DNA of 64,000 bases, taken from the NCBI RefSeq assembly GCF_001269905.1, contig NZ_LHVK01000003.1, positions 1 to 64,000 of the forward strand, in the 5' to 3' direction. Origin of the DNA: Pseudomonas corrugata (GTDB taxonomy: Bacteria; Pseudomonadota; Gammaproteobacteria; Pseudomonadales; Pseudomonadaceae). Positions 156 through 50,820 of this stretch are shown here, piece after piece. The number at the start of each line of letters is the position of its first letter. Position 1 is the stretch's first letter. Both the position numbers and the translations under genes were made by a program. The notes under the pieces were generated by a model. It was not told the origin of the DNA, did not search any database, and was given only the letters and a program-made list of their open reading frames with translations.

Positions 156-1043
156 ATGCAAGCCGCCAACCCGCGTCGCGGGTATATCCTGGGCCTGAGT
201 GCCTACGTCATCTGGGGGTTGTTCCCCATCTATTTCAAAGCCATCGCTGCCGTCCCTTCAGTGGAAATCATCGTCCATCGGGTACTGTGGTCGGCGCTGT
301 TCGGCTCGGCATTGCTGCTGGTCTGGAAACATCCGGGCTGGTGGCGCGAACTGCGCGACAACCCGCGTCGCCTGGCGATCCTGGCCCTGAGCGGCACCTT
401 GATCGCGGCCAACTGGCTGACTTACGTCTGGGCGGTGAACAACGGTCGCATGCTCGAAGCCAGCCTGGGTTATTACATCAACCCGCTGGTAAACGTGTTG
501 CTGGGGATGCTGATCCTGGGGGAGCGGCTGCGGCGCATGCAGTGGCTGGCGGTGGGGTTGGCAGCGGTTGGTGTGGCGCAGCAGGTCTGGCAGGTCGGCA
601 GCCTGCCATGGGTGTCGCTGGCCCTGGCGCTGACCTTCGGCTTCTACGGGTTGATCCGTAAACAGGCTCCGGTCCAGGCCTTGCCGGGGCTGGTGGTGGA
701 AACCTGGATGCTGGTGCCGATTGCCCTGGCCTGGTTGCTGTTCAATCCAACGGCCATCAGTGCCCAAGCCACCTTCTGGACCACCTCCGAAGCCTGGTGG
801 CTGGTAGCGGCCGGCCCGGTGACGCTGGTTCCGCTGGTGTGCTTCAACGCCGCTGCCCGGCATTTGCCCTACACGACGTTGGGATTTCTCCAGTACATCG
901 CCCCGACATTGGTGCTACTGCTGGCGGTGCTGCTGTTCGGCGAGCATTTGTCGTCCAGCACCTTGATGGCATTCCTGTTCATCTGGGCCGGGCTCGCGGT
1001 GTACAGCCTCGATGCCGTGATCAGCATGCGCCGTCGCACCTGA
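156..1043 (+). CDS. rarD: RarD-type EamA-family permease
   Basis: A 295-residue inner-membrane protein of the drug/metabolite transporter superfamily, RarD branch. About ten hydrophobic helices are visible, with the N-terminal YIWGLFPIYFKAI signature near residues 17-30 and a second EamA half from about residue 150. The substrate is unknown; RarD is named from chloramphenicol-sensitivity work in E. coli and a transport role is inferred from the fold. The start is the ATG after an AAGGA box. It stands alone, convergent with the downstream ACT-domain gene. Confidence 0.9.
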   Translation: MQAANPRRGYILGLSAYVIWGLFPIYFKAIAAVPSVEIIVHRVLWSALFGSALLLVWKHPGWWRELRDNPRRLAILALSGTLIAANWLTYVWAVNNGRMLEASLGYYINPLVNVLLGMLILGERLRRMQWLAVGLAAVGVAQQVWQVGSLPWVSLALALTFGFYGLIRKQAPVQALPGLVVETWMLVPIALAWLLFNPTAISAQATFWTTSEAWWLVAAGPVTLVPLVCFNAAARHLPYTTLGFLQYIAPTLVLLLAVLLFGEHLSSSTLMAFLFIWAGLAVYSLDAVISMRRRT

Positions 1044-1260
1044 TCAAAAATCGTACAGCTCCCTGCAGGCCACGTTCGACGTGGCCTGCGCCGATCGACC
1101 CCAAGGTTATCCACAGCATCATCCCCGCCGTTTGTGCACAAGCCCTTGAAAATTGGCGATTTTTTGATCATCACCGGCAAAGGCACGCCAGGCTTGGGCT
1201 GGCACCGTATCTCTACAGGTTATCCACAGGCAGGTGCAGTTTTTCCTTGGATAACCGGGC
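1044..1260. other. Intergenic region with two DnaA-box 9-mers
   Basis: The gap between the convergent rarD and gcvR-like genes holds no gene. It carries two exact TTATCCACA 9-mers in the same orientation at 1107-1115 and 1220-1228. No clear terminator hairpin with a T-run was seen. Confidence 0.6.
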
Positions 1261-44400: not shown

Positions 44401-44886
44401 GTGGGCTTCGAGCTTGGGCAGCTTCGGCTCCGATGACGGATAGGCATTGGGCTTGAGCATTTCCCTGGCCCGGGCGTAACCGTCCTTGAGCAATGTGTCG
44501 CGGTGTTCACGCACTTCCAACGGCCAGCGTGGATCTTCGAATACACCGGACTCCGGTTCCAGGGAGACATTGGCGTTGATCAGCGAAGTACCGCCCAGGC
44601 CACAGCCCACCACCACGTTCTGCTGGGCATTGACGTGCAAGTCGAACATGCCGGTGCGCGAGCCGATGTGGCCGTCCGGGTCATGTACCTGCAACTCCTC
44701 GGTGGCCGCCAGCATGGTGTTGGGGTATTCGCCGGGTTGCATCTCTCGGCCCCGCTCCAGCAGGCACACCTTGCGTCCGGCCCGGGATAGTCTTGAAGCG
44801 GCGATGCCACCACCGTAACCGGAGCCGATGACGATAACGTCGTAGTGTTCCTTGATATCACTGATGGGGGTCGAGATCCGTGTCAT
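41434..44886 (-). CDS. GMC-family dehydrogenase fused to an alpha/beta hydrolase
   Basis: A very large 1150-residue protein. Residues about 15-575 are a GMC oxidoreductase of the cholesterol-oxidase class: FAD motif VIVIGSGYGGG at about 17-27, VVVGCGLGGTSLINAN, and a C-terminal HPLGGCVMG. A cysteine cluster C201-x2-C204-x2-C207-x3-C211 resembles a 4Fe-4S motif. A middle beta-rich region (about 620-780, STIEFTLTITADDLNRM) is of unknown family. From about 830 an alpha/beta hydrolase follows (VMLVHGLGVGSN), with nucleophile elbow VHCYGAT (Cys922 at the usual serine position) and late GHID. Start ATG 44886 with GAGAGGA; a TTG lies six bases upstream. Substrate probably a lipid, sterol-like or ester compound (inference). 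Confidence 0.85.
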   Translation of the reverse strand: MTRISTPISDIKEHYDVIVIGSGYGGGIAASRLSRAGRKVCLLERGREMQPGEYPNTMLAATEELQVHDPDGHIGSRTGMFDLHVNAQQNVVVGCGLGGTSLINANVSLEPESGVFEDPRWPLEVREHRDTLLKDGYARAREMLKPNAYPSSEPKLPKLEAHRKSADYLKQTAHFYRPPINVTFDKLPNNLNHVGVEQLPCNGCGDCVSGCNNKAKNTTLMNYLPDAWNHGAEIFCQAEVRHLERDGDGWIVHFQYLDSGRELFSAPTLFVRADIVVVSAGTLGSTEIMLRSRDKGLSLSSQLGENMSGNGDILGFGHNCDQTINGIGFGAHSAKELEPVGPCITSIIDMRTEGDWRSRMVIEEGSIPGALGRPMVPSMAAFAEMIGVPTDKGFGASLKYKGREAESFLRGPYYGALHNMQTYLIMSHDNGKGRMVLDSKDQLRIDWPGVGEQENVTLGNERLHQSTKALGGIWVENPIWTKLLKHSIVSVHPLGGCVMGEDATQGVVNHKGQVFSGTSGTDVYPGLYVADGAVIPTSLAVNPLLTISAVSERNMGLLAADRGWHIDYTLPSAPKKSVAAPTLGVQFTETMKGYFSTAFTQAQGTDLTLYEAAAKRGRTDNSTIEFTLTITADDLNRMIKEPEHAATLVGTLDAPLLSPQPLVASNGVFNLFEQYQEQVGVRHMNYDMKLTAEDGSDYYFSAFKTVPEDNGVLNIWHDTSTLYVTLYRGPDKTGAVLGSGVMHILPADFAKQMTTMKVLNARNERERVEALARFGKFFAGILWESYGGVFAGDIYFNPDAPPRIKRPLDAPAPTVHFFETEDNVQLRLTRYQAGSKGPVMLVHGLGVGSNIFSTDTIHTNLLEYLCKHEYDVWLLDLRVSILLPASKHEWNGDQVAQYDFKAAIEQIQQATLARDVQCVVHCYGATTFFMSMLAGLQGVRSVVCSQIAADTVVATATGLKAGLHLPGMLDAIGIKSLTAYADTKENWFNKLYDKALNGYARIEAQGYCTNPVCHRITFMYASLYRHDTLNETLHDNLHELFGESNMHTFEHLALIVRKGHLVDFKGNDVYMPHFDRLKLPICFISGADNQCYLPQSTLKTYERLCDMHGPQLFSRHEIPGYGHIDCMFGKDAVVDVYPIILQHLEKTALG

Positions 44887-45931
44887 GTCCAAGTCCTCTC
44901 AGGCAGAAAGGGCAACTCTTCGGTTGCCTGTAAATCGAAGGCGTACAAAAACGCCTGGCCATGGCCCCGCAAGGGTACCCGCGGCAATCAACGGTATTGC
45001 GGGTGAAACCAGGCGTGCATGAAGGCTATTGGCGCACACGCTGATTGGCGGCGTGGCGACGAATGCGTCTGGGCAACAACGTGGGAGGCGTCGGAACGCG
45101 ATTCACCGAGGAGGGGAGGTACGCGTGAGGGGGTCGGCTATCCATCCTGTGCTCTCCCTGAACCGGATGTGGATAAAAACGCTGGTGTCCTTGTCGTTTG
45201 GAGTGAAGACACGCGACAGGTATGCGTCAAGGCAGTTCCTTAGAACTGTATGAAATTTGATCTATCGCGATTCGAACTATACCCGGCGGGCGTCGCAGCC
45301 TTTCGCCAACAAGTTATCCACATGACAACCCACAGCTAATGGGGACAAGTCCACCGAGGAATGAGCAATTTCTTGGAAAACCCCAGAATGAACCGGAATT
45401 TATCCCCATAGAGGGATTTTCCAGCACATCGGTCATTTTATGATCAAAGACCGCAGATGCCTGATCCATATGGCCTGCGACGGGGAGCGAACACCTTATC
45501 CACAGAAGCGCCAACAGCGTTTGGGGGTAATTTTGACGAATCTGTGGAAAAGCGCTGGCAGGCCCTGTAAATCAAGGTTCTATGGGATGTTTTCCAATTG
45601 CTCAGGTGATTTGATCATTTAATGACCAATCAAGCCAAACGCCCGTACCGCTTGGCTTGTAGAGGAGAGCGAACATCTTATCCACAAAAGCGCCAACAAG
45701 TATTGGGGGCAACTGTGGATCACACTCTGTCTTCGCCGATCAGAAAAAGCCAATAAAAACCGTGAGTTGGCTGATCATTATTTGAACGAAGCCTTGGATG
45801 GCTTGATTGGCAAGGGGTATAGCAAGGAGCGAACAGGTTATCCACAAGTAGGTATACAGTAACTGTGGGTAAGCAACTATTCCGCGGGAGGTACCTGCTC
45901 ACTCCTCCACGGAATCTGGTCATGCAACAGT
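44887..45931. other. Non-coding region with DnaA-box array
   Basis: About 1 kb without a supportable gene. Exact TTATCCACA 9-mers lie at 45168-45176 (minus), 45314-45322, 45496-45504, 45678-45686 and 45838-45846, with one-mismatch partners at 45400, 45543, 45714 and 45864. From about 45240 the DNA is organised in imperfect 160-180 bp repeats sharing GAGCGAACA-N2-TTATCCACA and a TGATCATTT-type string. Another exact box is at 46538. Confidence 0.7.
45430..45880. repeat. Imperfect tandem repeats of about 160-180 bp with DnaA boxes
   Basis: Three units can be aligned by eye. Each has an AT-rich TGATC-containing string, then GAGCGAACA, then an exact TTATCCACA, then usually AAGCGCCAACA and a TGTGG-type inverted near-box 30-45 bases later. 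Box-to-box distances are 182 and 160 bases; the box at 45314 fits the same 182-base period but the rest of its unit is diverged. Confidence 0.6.
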
Positions 45932-46498
45932 TCAGGGCCGATGCATGAGATACGCGTCTCCCGTTACCTTAATCATTGGATGCGGGACGATCTGACAGGT
46001 TTTAACGATGCCAAAGCCATGGCGCTCATAGAAGCGCCGGGCACCGGTGTTCGCTGCGTAGTCAATCAGGCTCAGCCCCTTGAGCTTCAATCGATCGGCC
46101 CGCTGTTGTGCCAGGTCGAGAAAACGCACGCCCAGCCCCTTGTTACGCCAACCTTCGTGCAGGGCCAGGCTCGATATATAGAGCGTATCGGGAATTTCCA
46201 TATCGGCGTAAGGCGCCAGGACCGGATCCGTGACGGGCGTCGCCAGCGGGTCATGATGCATCACGTAGCAATGCATCATCCCGATAACCCGACCGTCAGC
46301 CTCTGCAATGACGCAGTTCTGGTAGGAGAAATCAACATCCTCCCGAGCGTAGCGAGCTGCGCCCACTTCTACCAGATCCTGTCCAGGCTCCGCCAGCTGG
46401 CTCCAGATGTAGTCAGAAGCACCTTCGGAGGAAATCTGGAACAAGCGAGCGATCTCGGGCGTATCCGCGGGTGAAGCGGGACGAAATACGATGTCCAT
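45932..46498 (-). CDS. GNAT-family N-acetyltransferase
   Basis: A 188-residue acetyltransferase. The acetyl-CoA-binding motif is HEGWRNKGLGVRFLDLA at about 115-131 (the R/Q-x-x-G-x-G/A pattern), and ARRFYERHGFGIVK at about 152-165 is the second conserved segment. Acceptor unknown. The ATG at 46498 begins MDIVFRPASPAD. It is flanked by DnaA-box-like 9-mers on both sides. Confidence 0.85.
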   Translation of the reverse strand: MDIVFRPASPADTPEIARLFQISSEGASDYIWSQLAEPGQDLVEVGAARYAREDVDFSYQNCVIAEADGRVIGMMHCYVMHHDPLATPVTDPVLAPYADMEIPDTLYISSLALHEGWRNKGLGVRFLDLAQQRADRLKLKGLSLIDYAANTGARRFYERHGFGIVKTCQIVPHPMIKVTGDAYLMHRP

Positions 46499-46537
46499 GA
46501 AAGAGGGTTCCAATAGCTATCAGACGCCTTTCGGGGT

Positions 46538-46572
46538 TATCCACAGAGGCGCACAGGGGAGATTGTGGGTAA
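46538..46572. promoter_or_regulatory. DnaA-box pair upstream of the GNAT gene
   Basis: An exact TTATCCACA at 46538-46546 is paired with the inverted near-match TGTGGGTAA at 46564-46572. The pattern resembles the unit ending at 45872. Confidence 0.55.
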
Positions 46573-46582
46573 ACCCGAATCC

Positions 46583-46673
46583 CTTGTGAGCGAGCCTGCT
46601 CGCGATAGCGGCGTATCAGGCGACAACCCTGTCACCTGACACCCAGCCATCGCGAGCAGGCTCGCTCGCACAT
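46583..46673. repeat. REP pair
   Basis: TGTGAGCGAGCCTGCTCGCG and ATCGCGAGCAGGCTCGCTCG, both slightly diverged, lie just past the etfB stop. Confidence 0.85.
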
Positions 46674-46695
46674 AGGGTTTTGCGGGGATGTGGGG

Positions 46696-47466
46696 TTAAC
46701 GAACTACCCCTTCCTCCACCAACAGCTTGAGAATCGCCTCGGCACCGGCCTCCGGGCTCACGCCCTTAAGCACTTGCCCACCTCCGCCGCTGGCCTTGGC
46801 CGTGGCGGCTTTCATGCGGTCGGCGCCGCTCTTGGCCTTGATCACTTTCAGGCGTTTGGGCCGCGGTTTGGCCGGTTGCAGCGTCGCCGCTGCGAGCAAG
46901 TCGTCGTCGATCACTTCGACTTCTTCGGCATGCAAGACGCCACGTCGGGCCGGACCGTAGGCACTCTGACGAGGTTTTGGCGCCGCGTTATCCACAGTAG
47001 CGAGAAACGGCAGACGCACCTTCAGCCGGCGTCGTTGACCACGGGGCAATGCCTGCAACACCAGCGCCACGCCATTATCGATGGACTCCACCTGGGCCAG
47101 CCCCACCACCAATGGCCAGCCCAGGTTTTCTGCCAGCAGGAACGGCAGCATTCCCGAACCTTCGCCGGTTTCCGCCTGGCTACCGGTGAGCACCACCTGG
47201 GGCCCCGCGTCGCGCAGGTAGTCGGTCAGGGCCGGTAGCGCGTCGGCCCCTGCCGGGTTTTCCAGCACGCGAAGTTCGTCCAGACCCATCCCCAGGTAAG
47301 CGCGCAGGGCTGGTTCGGCCACGTCGCCGGCATGCAGTACTTGCAGGTCGCTTCCGGCCAGTTGCAAGCCCAGCTCCACGGCCCGGGCGTCCTGGTCAGC
47401 ACGCCTTGGCCGACCGGAGGTAGGGTGGGCGCCGATGGAGACGAGGCTGATCACTTGAGTCGTCAT
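46696..47466 (-). CDS. etfB: Electron transfer flavoprotein beta subunit (dgc-linked)
   Basis: A 256-residue ETF beta-like protein. The N-terminal adenine-nucleotide alpha-hydrolase-type fold is present (ISLVSIGAHPTSGRPRRADQ, GSQAETGEGSGMLPFLLAENL), while the C-terminal arm differs from housekeeping EtfB. It pairs with the alpha subunit at 47482 and should carry electrons from dimethylglycine oxidation to the quinone pool, as proposed for the PA5400/PA5401 pair of P. aeruginosa. The gene contains an exact TTATCCACA at 46988. Confidence 0.85.
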   Translation of the reverse strand: MTTQVISLVSIGAHPTSGRPRRADQDARAVELGLQLAGSDLQVLHAGDVAEPALRAYLGMGLDELRVLENPAGADALPALTDYLRDAGPQVVLTGSQAETGEGSGMLPFLLAENLGWPLVVGLAQVESIDNGVALVLQALPRGQRRRLKVRLPFLATVDNAAPKPRQSAYGPARRGVLHAEEVEVIDDDLLAAATLQPAKPRPKRLKVIKAKSGADRMKAATAKASGGGGQVLKGVSPEAGAEAILKLLVEEGVVR

Positions 47467-47481
47467 GGTTGAATCCTTAAC

Positions 47482-48702
47482 TTAAGCCGCATCACGCTTG
47501 GCCTCGTTGCGGTAAGCCTCTACCGCCGCGATCAAGGCTTGAAGAATCGCCGCGCTGTCGCCGATCACCGACAGGTCTGCCCGCTTGATCATGTCGCAGC
47601 CCGGATCGAGGTTGATCGCCACCACCTTGTCGCAGGCACCGATGCCTTGCAGGTGCTGGATCGCACCGGAAATCCCCACGGCCACATAGACCCGCGCGGT
47701 GACCCAGGTGCCACTGGCGCCGACCTGACGGTCCCGGGCCATGAAACCATCGTCCACCGCCACCCGCGAAGCGCCTTCGGTAGCACCCAGGGCCGCAGCC
47801 GTCTGATGGAACAGCGCCCAGTCCTTGACCCCGTTGCCGCCCGAGAAAATGAATTCGGCTTCGGCCATAGGGATCGCACCCGGATCCACCGCCACCGCCC
47901 CCAGATCCTCGATGCGCGACAGGCTACGAGCCACGCCTGTGGATAACTCCACCGGCAACGCCTCGTGGCGGGTTTCGCTGACCGGTTCGGCACATTCGGC
48001 GGCGGCCAGGATCAACCGGGCCAAAGGCCGGGCCAAGTCTTGCAGGCCCGCACCGGCGCGACCGATGCACTCCTCGCCCTTGACCTGCCAGACGCGGGTA
48101 GCCGGACGCTCGCCCAGGGCCGCGGCAAAGCGCCGGCCCAGTTCAGCGCCACCGCTGCGGCTGTCGGGCAGCAACCAATGTCGCGGGTTGAACTGGTTAT
48201 CCACAGCCCGCAGGCCCTGCACACGTTGTTCTGGTGCGTAACCGCTGAACTCCTCGCCGTCCAGCACCAACAGACGATCCACGCCGGCTGTGGCGAACGC
48301 GCTTTCCTTATGCTCACCAAAGACCACTGCCAGCACGGCACCCTCCGTCCCGGCCAACTGATGAGCCAGGCCCAGCAGATCGCGATCGTGACTGCTGAGG
48401 CGTCCGCCCACCATGTCCGGCACCACACAGATGTGGAACGCCGGTTGCAGCACTTGATGCAGCGGCAGTTGCACTTCGGTCGCGGCGCTGCGCTTGGCCG
48501 TGCCGCCCTGCTGGGCGCCACTGCGATCGATACGCTTGATACCGTTGGGGCCGATAAAGCCGACGCCATGGACATTCTTGCGAATGATGCCGTTAGGCCC
48601 CATCCAGCTGTGCTGTACCGGTTGCATGGCCGCGTGCAGCGGGTGCAGGCGGTTGCGGGCGATCCACTCGGCGCGAGGGTCGCGGCGGATGATGTCGCTC
48701 AT
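47482..48702 (-). CDS. etfA: Electron transfer flavoprotein alpha subunit (dgc-linked)
   Basis: A 406-residue ETF alpha. The FAD-binding C-terminal domain is clear (VAVGISGAIQHLQGI, then AINLDPGCDMIKRADLSVIGD). The N-terminus has an unusual extension of about 90 residues with MGPNGIIRKN and IGPNGIKRID, a repeated GPNGI motif not found in housekeeping EtfA. The start overlaps the dgcB stop by one base (TAATG). It links DgcAB to the respiratory chain. Confidence 0.88.
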   Translation of the reverse strand: MSDIIRRDPRAEWIARNRLHPLHAAMQPVQHSWMGPNGIIRKNVHGVGFIGPNGIKRIDRSGAQQGGTAKRSAATEVQLPLHQVLQPAFHICVVPDMVGGRLSSHDRDLLGLAHQLAGTEGAVLAVVFGEHKESAFATAGVDRLLVLDGEEFSGYAPEQRVQGLRAVDNQFNPRHWLLPDSRSGGAELGRRFAAALGERPATRVWQVKGEECIGRAGAGLQDLARPLARLILAAAECAEPVSETRHEALPVELSTGVARSLSRIEDLGAVAVDPGAIPMAEAEFIFSGGNGVKDWALFHQTAAALGATEGASRVAVDDGFMARDRQVGASGTWVTARVYVAVGISGAIQHLQGIGACDKVVAINLDPGCDMIKRADLSVIGDSAAILQALIAAVEAYRNEAKRDAA

Positions 48703-50651
48703 TAATGCACCTCCGCAGGTTCACGTTTGGCCGAGGCCGCAGGCTTGCTCGGCGCTGCATCTTCGAGCAGGGCATCAGCCACCAGCTCGGCGATGTCCTT
48801 GATCATCGGCCGAGGCTCGACTACACCCTCGAGCATCGCAGTGCATTGTGGACAACCCACGGCCACCAGCTCGGCGCCGGTTTCGCGGATGTCTTCCATA
48901 CGCATGTCAGGGATCCGCTGCTTGCCCGGGATGTCGGTGATCGGCGCACCGCCGCCACCGCCGCAGCAACGCGAACGGAAACCGGAACGCTGCATTTCCT
49001 TGACCTCTATGCCCAGGGCACGCAGCACCTGGCGCGGCGCCTCGTATTCGCCGTTGTAGCGACCCAGGTAGCACGGGTCGTGATACGTCACGCTGTCACC
49101 CTTGTGCTGGCCGAGGCTGAGGGCACCGGCGTCGATGATTTCCGCCAGGTAGGTGCTGTGGTGCTGCACCAGGTAGTTGCCATCGAAGGCGCCGTATTCA
49201 TTTTTCAGCACGTGGAAACTGTGAGGATCGCAAGTCACGATGCGCTTGAAATTGTATTTGGCCAGGGTCTGGATATTGCGCTTGGCCAACAGCTGGAACG
49301 TCGCTTCGTCACCGAGACGCCGGGCCACGTCGCCGCTGTCGCGCTCCTCAAGACCGAGCACGGCGAAATCGATGTCCGCGGCCTTCAGCACTTTGACGAA
49401 GGCGCGCAGGGTGCGCTGGTTACGCATGTCGAAGGCACCGTCACCGACCCAGAACAACACGTCGGTGGATTTCTTCTCGCTGAGCAGGTTCAGGTTGAGG
49501 TCCGCCGCCCAGTTCATCCGCCCGCCCGGGGCGAAGCCCCCAGGGTTATCAGTGGCGATGAGATTCTCCAGCACCTCGGCGCCCTTGTTCGGCGTGGCGC
49601 CTTTTTCCAGGGTCAGGTGCCGGCGCATGTCGACGATAGCGTCGACGTGCTCGATCATCATCGGGCATTCCTCGACGCAGGCACGGCAGGTGGTGCAGGA
49701 CCACAGCGTCTCGGCGTCCACAAGGCCGTTGACGATCGGCTGGTGCGGATTGCCGCCGTGCTCGCCCACCGGTTTGCCCGGATACGGGCTGCCGGCGAAC
49801 TTCGCATCGGTGCCGCCAGCCAGGCCGACGACCATATCCTGGATGAGCTTCTTCGGGTTCAGCGGCTGGCCGGCGGCGAACGCCGGGCAGGCTGCTTCAC
49901 ACTTGCCGCACTGCACGCAGGCGTCGAAACCGAGCAACTGGTTCCAGGTGAAATCCTTGGGTTTCTCCACGCCCAACGGCGCAGTGGGATCGTTCAGGTC
50001 CAATGGCTTCAGGCCAGTGGAGCGACCACCGCCAAAGCGCTCGGCACGACGGTGCCAGGCCAGGTGCAGGGCACCGGCAAAGGCGTGCTTCATCGGCCCG
50101 CCCCAGGTCATGCCGAACAACAGCTCCGACACACCCCACAGCACGCCGACGCCCAGGATCGCCGCCAACAGCCAACCACCGAAGTTTTCCGGGAGAATAC
50201 CGGCCACCGGCAGGGTCACCAGGAAGAACGATGCCGAGAACGCCAACAGGCTTTTCGGCAGGCGCATCCACGGGCCTTTCGACAGGCGCGCCGGCGGATT
50301 GCGCCGACGCAGGTAGACAAAGATCGCACCGACGAACATCACCGCCGACATCAACAGCAGTGCATAGCCAAGGATACGGTTATGCAGGCCGAAACCGTGC
50401 ACCAGGATTGCCAGCACAAGCGACGCCACCGCACCACCGGCCGTGGCAACGTGGGTGTTGGCAATGTATTTGTCCCGCGCCACCACGTGGTGCAAATCCA
50501 CCATGTAGCGCTTGGGCATGGCAAAGAGGCCGCCGATCAGGTTGACCTTGGACGGTCGCCCCCGGCGCCACATGTTCACCCGCCGCAAGGCGCCAAGGAC
50601 CGCGAGGCCCAAAGCGGCGAACAGCAGGATGGGAAGAAGGGTGTTCAGCAT
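48702..50651 (-). CDS. dgcB: Dimethylglycine demethylase subunit DgcB (Fe-S)
   Basis: A 649-residue membrane Fe-S protein. Several N-terminal helices (about 3-23, 70-90, 93-113, 135-175) precede two 4Fe-4S motifs, CVQCGKCEAACP and CTTCRACVEECP. Two cysteine-rich CCG-type domains follow (DPCYLGRYNG...CCGGGGGAP and GCPQC). It receives electrons from DgcA and passes them to the ETF or quinones. The ATG at 50651 (MLNTLLPILL) was preferred to an in-frame codon 36 bases upstream. Confidence 0.93.
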   Translation of the reverse strand: MLNTLLPILLFAALGLAVLGALRRVNMWRRGRPSKVNLIGGLFAMPKRYMVDLHHVVARDKYIANTHVATAGGAVASLVLAILVHGFGLHNRILGYALLLMSAVMFVGAIFVYLRRRNPPARLSKGPWMRLPKSLLAFSASFFLVTLPVAGILPENFGGWLLAAILGVGVLWGVSELLFGMTWGGPMKHAFAGALHLAWHRRAERFGGGRSTGLKPLDLNDPTAPLGVEKPKDFTWNQLLGFDACVQCGKCEAACPAFAAGQPLNPKKLIQDMVVGLAGGTDAKFAGSPYPGKPVGEHGGNPHQPIVNGLVDAETLWSCTTCRACVEECPMMIEHVDAIVDMRRHLTLEKGATPNKGAEVLENLIATDNPGGFAPGGRMNWAADLNLNLLSEKKSTDVLFWVGDGAFDMRNQRTLRAFVKVLKAADIDFAVLGLEERDSGDVARRLGDEATFQLLAKRNIQTLAKYNFKRIVTCDPHSFHVLKNEYGAFDGNYLVQHHSTYLAEIIDAGALSLGQHKGDSVTYHDPCYLGRYNGEYEAPRQVLRALGIEVKEMQRSGFRSRCCGGGGGAPITDIPGKQRIPDMRMEDIRETGAELVAVGCPQCTAMLEGVVEPRPMIKDIAELVADALLEDAAPSKPAASAKREPAEVH

Positions 50652-50713
50652 GGTGAAGCTCCCAAAGACCTCAGGTCTTGCAGGCACAGAAACCTGGATG
50701 TCTTGCTCGATTC

Positions 50714-50802
50714 CTGTGGGAGCAAGGCTTGCCTGCGATGGGATTGACTCGGTCAGTCAGATGCTCCGTATCGCTGCTATCGCGGGCAAGCCTTGCTCCC
50801 AC
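50714..50802. repeat. REP pair between dgcA and dgcB
   Basis: TGTGGGAGCAAGGCTTGCCT and ATCGCGGGCAAGCCTTGCTC, directly followed by an exact TTATCCACA at 50807-50815. Confidence 0.85.
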
Positions 50803-50820
50803 TGGGTTATCCACAAGCCG

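Follow-up and report, generated by a model that had tools for sequence, protein, structure and literature searches.

A tandem array of composite DnaA-box elements with Fis-consensus sites in Pseudomonas that may work like E. coli DARS

The cluster of DnaA boxes that begins at position 45168 of the 64,000-nt Pseudomonas corrugata window (the window being the whole stretch of DNA that was analysed) is more accurately seen as a composite element repeated four times, each copy combining a perfect DnaA box, two weak boxes and a Fis-consensus site. The locus most likely acts on DnaA, and we lean towards the view that it is a tandem array of four Fis-linked DnaA-control elements working like E. coli DARS. 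At the sequence level, this is supported by the conservation of the boxes, their geometry, the Fis consensus at a fixed distance, the helical-turn steps between units, conservation in relatives, and copies to either side of dnaA; that DnaA and Fis bind the units, that nucleotide exchange takes place there and that timing is affected is what we infer from them.

The exact 9-mer TTATCCACA occurs 12 times in the window against 0.24 occurrences computed as expected, and 0 of 100 shuffles reached 12; what chance would produce is far exceeded, and the array is real. Ten of the 12 fall within 45168-50815, that is, in 5.6 kb. All six exact 9-mers that had been reported are present (45168 on the minus strand, 45314, 45496, 45678, 45838 and 46537, the last having been given as 46538, off by one), as are the five reported one-mismatch partners at 45400, 45543, 45714, 45864 and 46564; the distances of 182, 182 and 160 between plus-strand boxes and the imperfect repetition of the surrounding DNA are likewise borne out. 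The region had been called non-coding, which holds for 45168-45931, where there is no evident gene, and does not hold for 45932-46513. The features of the array and its surroundings are:

45168-45176, minus strand: exact DnaA box, 146 bp before unit 1
45248-45348, plus strand: unit 1, with Fis consensus 45248-45262 (at -66), DnaA box 45314-45322, weak forward box 45326-45334 and weak reverse box 45340-45348
45431-45530, plus strand: unit 2, with Fis consensus 45431-45445 (at -65), DnaA box 45496-45504, weak forward box 45508-45516 and weak reverse box 45522-45530
45613-45712, plus strand: unit 3, with Fis consensus 45613-45627, DnaA box 45678-45686, weak forward box 45690-45698 and weak reverse box 45704-45712
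45773-45872, plus strand: unit 4, with Fis consensus 45773-45787, DnaA box 45838-45846, weak forward box 45850-45858 and reverse box 45864-45872 (TTACCCACA)
45932-46513, minus strand: GNAT acetyltransferase gene
46537-46572, plus strand: isolated exact box lying upstream of the GNAT gene, its reverse partner at +27
46988-46996, plus strand: exact box in etfB, kept in 65 of 80 relatives
47938-47946, minus strand: exact box in etfA, kept in 80 of 80 relatives
48197-48205, plus strand: exact box in etfA, kept in 78 of 80 relatives
50807: exact box, beyond the end of the initial annotation
1107 and 1220: exact boxes far from the array

Counterparts of the 45168 box lie at about the same distance from the array in part of the relatives and about 2.2 kb away in others, and in some no counterpart was seen. 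The lone box at 46537 has no Fis-consensus site near -65, its mid box is unrecognisable (degenerate or unrelated), and its match to our search profile proves nothing, since it was among the sequences used to build that profile.

The genome to which the window belongs (6.13 Mb in 31 contigs) holds 113 exact boxes, compared to 12 for a reversed control pattern. A genome-wide comparison with oriC had been suggested as a check on whether equal or denser clusters occur elsewhere. Among the 100 of 113 boxes listed, the largest cluster is the oriC/dnaA region itself (C29:117785-151543, 22 exact boxes in ~34 kb); at C29:63484-73492 there is a smaller cluster, with 6 exact boxes in 10 kb and no composite unit.

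In each unit a perfect forward DnaA box is followed by two weak ones, forward at +12 and reverse at +26, a spacing of 9-3-9-5-9. Compared to the box consensus, the mid boxes of the window array match at 4-6 of 9 positions and the reverse boxes at 6-8 of 9. The aligned units yielded the core and the search profile, and matches of the array to this profile are therefore by construction. When box matches were counted at every offset, the best forward offset was +12 and the best reverse offset +26 in 7 of 7 tabulated groups (A, the array; B, C and D, the further loci described below; and g15, g1x and g9 from other genomes, the two g12 units being left out of the table), where the groups other than A had been found with a profile covering +12 and +26, so that their geometry is partly a matter of selection. 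An unselected test was made on 100 of the 113 boxes of the own genome. Reverse boxes matching at least 6 of 9 positions were most frequent at +26, with 10 boxes against 4 at the second-ranking offset. The pair +12/+26 topped all offset pairs with 5 boxes, against 2 for the next pair and a mean of 0.05; of the single forward offsets in the same test, -11 came first (12 boxes) and +12 second (10 boxes). The primary box is exact in 288 of the 292 units from the window and 72 further loci. Mean information content reaches 1.63-1.83 bits per position in the 45-bp core and 0.98-1.33 bits across the Fis site and the DNA that links it to the core, compared to 0.12-0.94 bits further upstream and just downstream.

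The Fis consensus GNNYRNNWNNYRNNC begins at -65 from the perfect box (-66 in unit 1) and lies outside the profile. It is found near -65 in 73 of 73 cases for each of the array units A1-A4, and hence in 292/292 array units, while the rate in shuffled sequences is 0-5% by group, and 2-4% where A1-A4, B, C, D and g15 are concerned. The non-array units carry it in 38 of 43 cases (9/9 in B, 11/11 in C, 6/6 in D, 9/9 in g15, 2/2 in g9, 1/2 in g12 and 0/4 in g1x), a set that was hand-picked from profile matches with 15 boxes left out; of these 15, 13 have a reverse box, and 10 of the 13 the Fis consensus. In g15, which belongs to another genus, the site begins at -65 in eight units and at -64 in one, and the g1x units that lack the strict consensus are weaker units from two genomes of the own genus. 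The outer G and C of the motif are invariant in A2-A4 and the inner letters vary; these outer positions are described as being among the most important for Fis binding (PMC4278767). Both orientations of the motif occur, differing between loci. For P. putida, the same source reports Fis binding at lapF by footprint and that deletion of fis seems to be lethal in Pseudomonas (PMC4278767).

The Fis consensus and the reverse box go together. In the own genome, a reverse box matching at least 5 of 9 positions stands at +26 in 9/9 Fis-positive boxes compared to 8/91 others (p 1.3e-8; 100 of 113 boxes), and in the complete relative G073 in 7/7 compared to 3/56 (p 2.2e-7; 63 of 134 boxes, picked from the first 100 listed); since array units make up 4/9 and 4/7 of these Fis-positive boxes, they represent only five and four loci, and shared ancestry of the units means that the counts overstate independence. 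At loci from other or more distant genomes the figures are 35/36 Fis-positive and 9/33 Fis-negative boxes, a count that is biased because most of these loci were fetched for their match to the core. Units with a reverse box and without the Fis consensus do occur, namely 3 of the 13 left-out ones and one in G073 at 3375612. None of the 22 oriC-region boxes has a Fis consensus near -65.

Scanning the array units for the IHF consensus gave no consistently placed IHF site; the best matches are nearer to the consensus than those in shuffles in units 2-4, at places that vary between units. The A-tract/GATC motif upstream of the box resembled the E. coli oriC element 'GATCAACAACCTG', which we take to be an IHF site. 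We rejected it as an IHF site given the lack of consistent IHF placement; read in either direction, it agrees with the Fis consensus. A third conserved stretch lies between the Fis site and the box (45454-45482 in the window, for example) and looks like an inverted repeat, GCAAGCC...GGCTTGC in some loci; tried as a hairpin, this repeat gave no clear covariation signal.

Relatives were collected by EtfA, taking the best 80 of 569 loci found; the EtfA of the window shares 99% identity with its counterparts in P. mediterranea CFBP 5447 and other strains, which suggests a genome of the P. fluorescens lineage. Absence of the array from close relatives, which had been named as a finding that would refute the initial reading, was not seen: four units are present in 78 of the 80 genomes, in 72 within the fetched stretch and in 6 by genome search, where the contig ended early or the array lay outside that stretch. 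The two exceptions are L055, with two units before the contig end (fetched stretch only), and L078, whose genome has only two. Conservation was calculated first on the 67 arrays with four exact boxes (window and 66 loci), and then on 73 without that condition. All 219 inter-unit distances fall within 2 bp of 150, 161, 171.5, 182 or 192.5, five class centres ~10.5 bp apart that were chosen after the data were seen. Although much of this regularity is shared ancestry, the less frequent classes suggest that whole helical turns were preserved when lengths changed. The flanks vary, with a GMC gene within 600 bp in 36/72 loci and the GNAT gene adjacent in 18/72 and not found in 38/72; in G190, a two-unit version lies ~0.69 Mb from etfA. 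The locus L030 (P. fluorescens PS723) has six units in two blocks, which looks like a partial duplication of the array.

The wider sample comprised 248 genomes of the family. Of the 55 own-genus genomes shown, 25 have a best unit match below 1e-12 (G190, G218 and G224 with only two strong array units listed), and a strong match is absent from the other 30, 24 having weaker matches only and six none at E 0.01; part of the genus is thus without strong units. In G137, from another genus, the array stands beside etfB. An order-wide profile search of 194 genomes with stricter filters found no array outside the family; eight genomes outside it gave one weak match each (E 3e-5 to 6e-4), and these we treated as chance rather than as real units.

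Searching the own genome with the array by blastn (E 0.001) returned no second copy, and further units were found only with the profile. A second oriC is not supported as an explanation: the array showed no similarity to the own oriC in this search, and the oriC-region boxes are without the Fis site near -65. The further loci are:

Locus B, own genome: between livF and a short-chain dehydrogenase (SDR) gene
Locus C, own genome: beside yigZ, two units
Locus D, own genome: between histone-deacetylase-like (HDAC) and HI0933-like genes
Locus E, 1042-1141, plus strand: between rarD and a gcvR-like gene, with the Fis consensus at -65, DnaA box 1107-1115, mid box 6/9 and reverse box 7/9

The second box near locus E, at 1220, has a reverse box matching at 7/9 and no strict Fis consensus. 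The gene neighbours of B, C and D are kept in the relatives fetched, B being found also in the g9 genome L132 and C in the g15 genome L131; for E there is a candidate in one genome, G073, recognised by the unit itself, 34 kb from the array of that genome. A, B and D sit upstream of a gene start, while C and E are each flanked by two genes that converge on them. Because the own assembly is split into contigs, the distance of its array from dnaA is inferred from complete relatives: A lies ~501, 512, 502, 381, 554 and 523 kb from dnaA in G073, G240, G222, G190, G001 and G002, always on one side, and in the same six genomes B lies 588-709 kb away on the opposite side. C is found on B's side at 773-815 kb in three genomes (G001, G002 and G190), and D on A's side at 812-887 kb in three synteny-checked genomes (G001, G002 and G073). 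Element loci thus occur on both sides of dnaA at ~0.4-0.9 Mb in complete relatives.

The spacing of the unit, with two boxes one way and one the other, is that of E. coli DARS. In MG1655 the DARS1 core reads TAATACACA-3-TTATCCACA-5-AGTGGATAA and the DARS2 core, on the strand shown, TTCTTCACA-3-CTATCCACA-5-GGTGAATAA, the limits of the latter being set by deletion primers (PMC4585315) and by the text of PMC5742627, which describes DARS1 and DARS2 as sharing three equally spaced boxes, box I opposite to II and III. An apparent difference between the geometry of DARS2 and that of the unit rested on boxes outside the core and was discarded, the true core being 9-3-9-5-9. Box strengths differ: the middle box is the strong one in E. 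coli DARS (9/9 and 8/9), whereas in the window units the outer first box is perfect and the weak boxes match at only 4-8 of 9 positions, weaker than in DARS. DARS1 is a single core with a stronger middle box than the units here, and we know of no Fis dependence for it. DARS2 depends on IHF, and additional boxes lie in its regulatory region of ~400 bp; it has one core per locus, in contrast to the tandem units here, whose Fis consensus stands 65 bp from the outer box and for which no IHF site at a constant position was found. DARS2 and the units are both intergenic and both have a Fis site, required in DARS2 and here a consensus match, and Fis is reported to activate DARS2 (PMC4245941, PMC8682772). 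The genes nearby are different, the E. coli loci lying at bioD-uvrB and rppH-mutH and those here at etfB/GMC, livF/SDR, yigZ, HDAC/HI0933-like and rarD/gcvR-like genes.

If the units do work like DARS, DnaA would occupy the perfect box and bring more DnaA to the two weak boxes, the one at 12 bp pointing the same way and the one at 26 bp the opposite way, resulting in a head-to-head DnaA pair of the kind that in DARS loosens ADP. Fis bound ~50 bp upstream may introduce a bend and restrict the complex to growing cells, while helical phasing could let four such complexes stack on one face. The released DnaA would then reload with ATP, so that the loci would tune initiation at oriC. Going further, pseudomonads might have a dispersed, Fis-gated DnaA-recharging system unlike that of E. 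coli, in which one chromosome arm carries a helically phased tandem array of DARS-like cores and each arm has other fixed sites with one or two copies, a proposal that we regard as rather doubtful; were it true, the level of Fis would set initiation directly, and Fis-gated recharging could be one reason for the apparent lethality of fis loss reported in PMC4278767.

The main rival to a DARS-like role is a titration or datA-like one, in which the array would be a sink able to take up much DnaA; duplicated shortly after initiation, it would reduce the free (or ATP-bound) pool and so restrain re-initiation. We regard this as possible without thinking it probable. The weakness of the inner boxes and the failure to find an IHF site in a constant place keep it a live rival, and titration in E. 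coli has published support (PMC12371093). The 10 exact boxes in 5.6 kb suit such a sink, as does their place: datA and the array are both non-coding DnaA-box clusters, the array 381-554 kb from dnaA in six complete relatives and datA 0.47 Mb from oriC (PMC5742627). So does the distribution in G073, where the 1.32-4.19 Mb interval of the 5.99-Mb chromosome contains only 7/134 exact boxes, with dnaA at 1 kb. The boxes within etfA, kept at the codon level, fit as well. At the 47938 box the codons GAG-TTA-TCC-ACA are identical in 81/81 sequences; TTA is otherwise rare, 81 of the 89 TTA codons across all these etfA genes being this one, and the codon is fixed in only 14 of 288 amino-acid-invariant columns with codon choice, the four box codons among them. 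This fixation points to selection on the DNA itself, and the box at 48197-48205 is also held at the codon level across relatives. A sink, however, needs boxes only; it does not account for weak boxes at the constant offsets +12 and +26, for the Fis consensus at -65 or for the DARS spacing. Nor is the build that of datA, whose essential boxes are described as sharing one orientation, boxes 2 and 3 being separated by an IHF site (PMC5742627), in contrast to units that carry a reverse box at +26 and in which no IHF site was found at a constant place; around the exact box of datA, no Fis-consensus match was found between -120 and +149. Of the datA or titration reading in the initial annotation, what stands is a conserved DnaA-box locus near the datA-oriC distance, and what falls is the datA build. 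Chromosomal DnaA-box clusters that repress untimely initiation are also described in B. subtilis and Streptomyces (PMC5742627), and the likeness to the array is by description only. A DARS-like and a titration or datA-like role predict opposite effects of deletion on initiation.

Control of the neighbouring genes (GMC oxidoreductase, GNAT and the etf operon) by DnaA and Fis, both of which act as transcription factors, appears quite improbable to us. Three of the five own-genome loci (A, B and D) do lie upstream of a gene start, but C and E sit where two genes converge, with only 3' gene ends facing them, the form of the array is kept while its neighbours change (GMC in 36/72 and GNAT in 18/72 loci, and ~0.69 Mb from etfA in G190), and a simple consensus scan of 44800-46800 for sigma-70-type promoters found none. 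The loci on both sides of dnaA at ~0.4-0.9 Mb, as well as the helical-turn spacing of the tandem units, would also suit an architectural or segregation site, at which clusters of DnaA and Fis organise the origin-proximal chromosome domain; we consider this very improbable, as such a site has no clear need for the layout of a DARS core.

The resetting of DnaA activity in each cycle has been worked out mainly in E. coli. DARS are placed among E. coli-like proteobacteria in PMC4245941, PMC8682772 and PMC5742627, and the literature searched (titles and abstract openings, with few subscription journals covered) gave no description of DARS, datA or such arrays in Pseudomonas. If the DARS-like reading is right, the array and its companion loci would be defined, deletable sites in a major genus, in which DARS-type cores are used in tandem at a fixed distance from Fis, and where the roles of titration, reactivation and Fis could be tested separately.

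A few minor observations were made alongside. The window carries a REP-like 41-nt inverted repeat at 46585-46670; Rfam MIR-family matches at 46588-46668 fall on this repeat and were set aside, scoring below the gathering threshold. In G073, 15 exact boxes recur with a 630-bp period at C1:141182-150002, which inflates box counts there; a long gene for a repeat protein may lie at this place, the box being a coding by-product. In another genus, repeated unit matches with a period near 204 bp are found at G110:C1:2210894-2212373 (L138), ~30 kb from dnaA.
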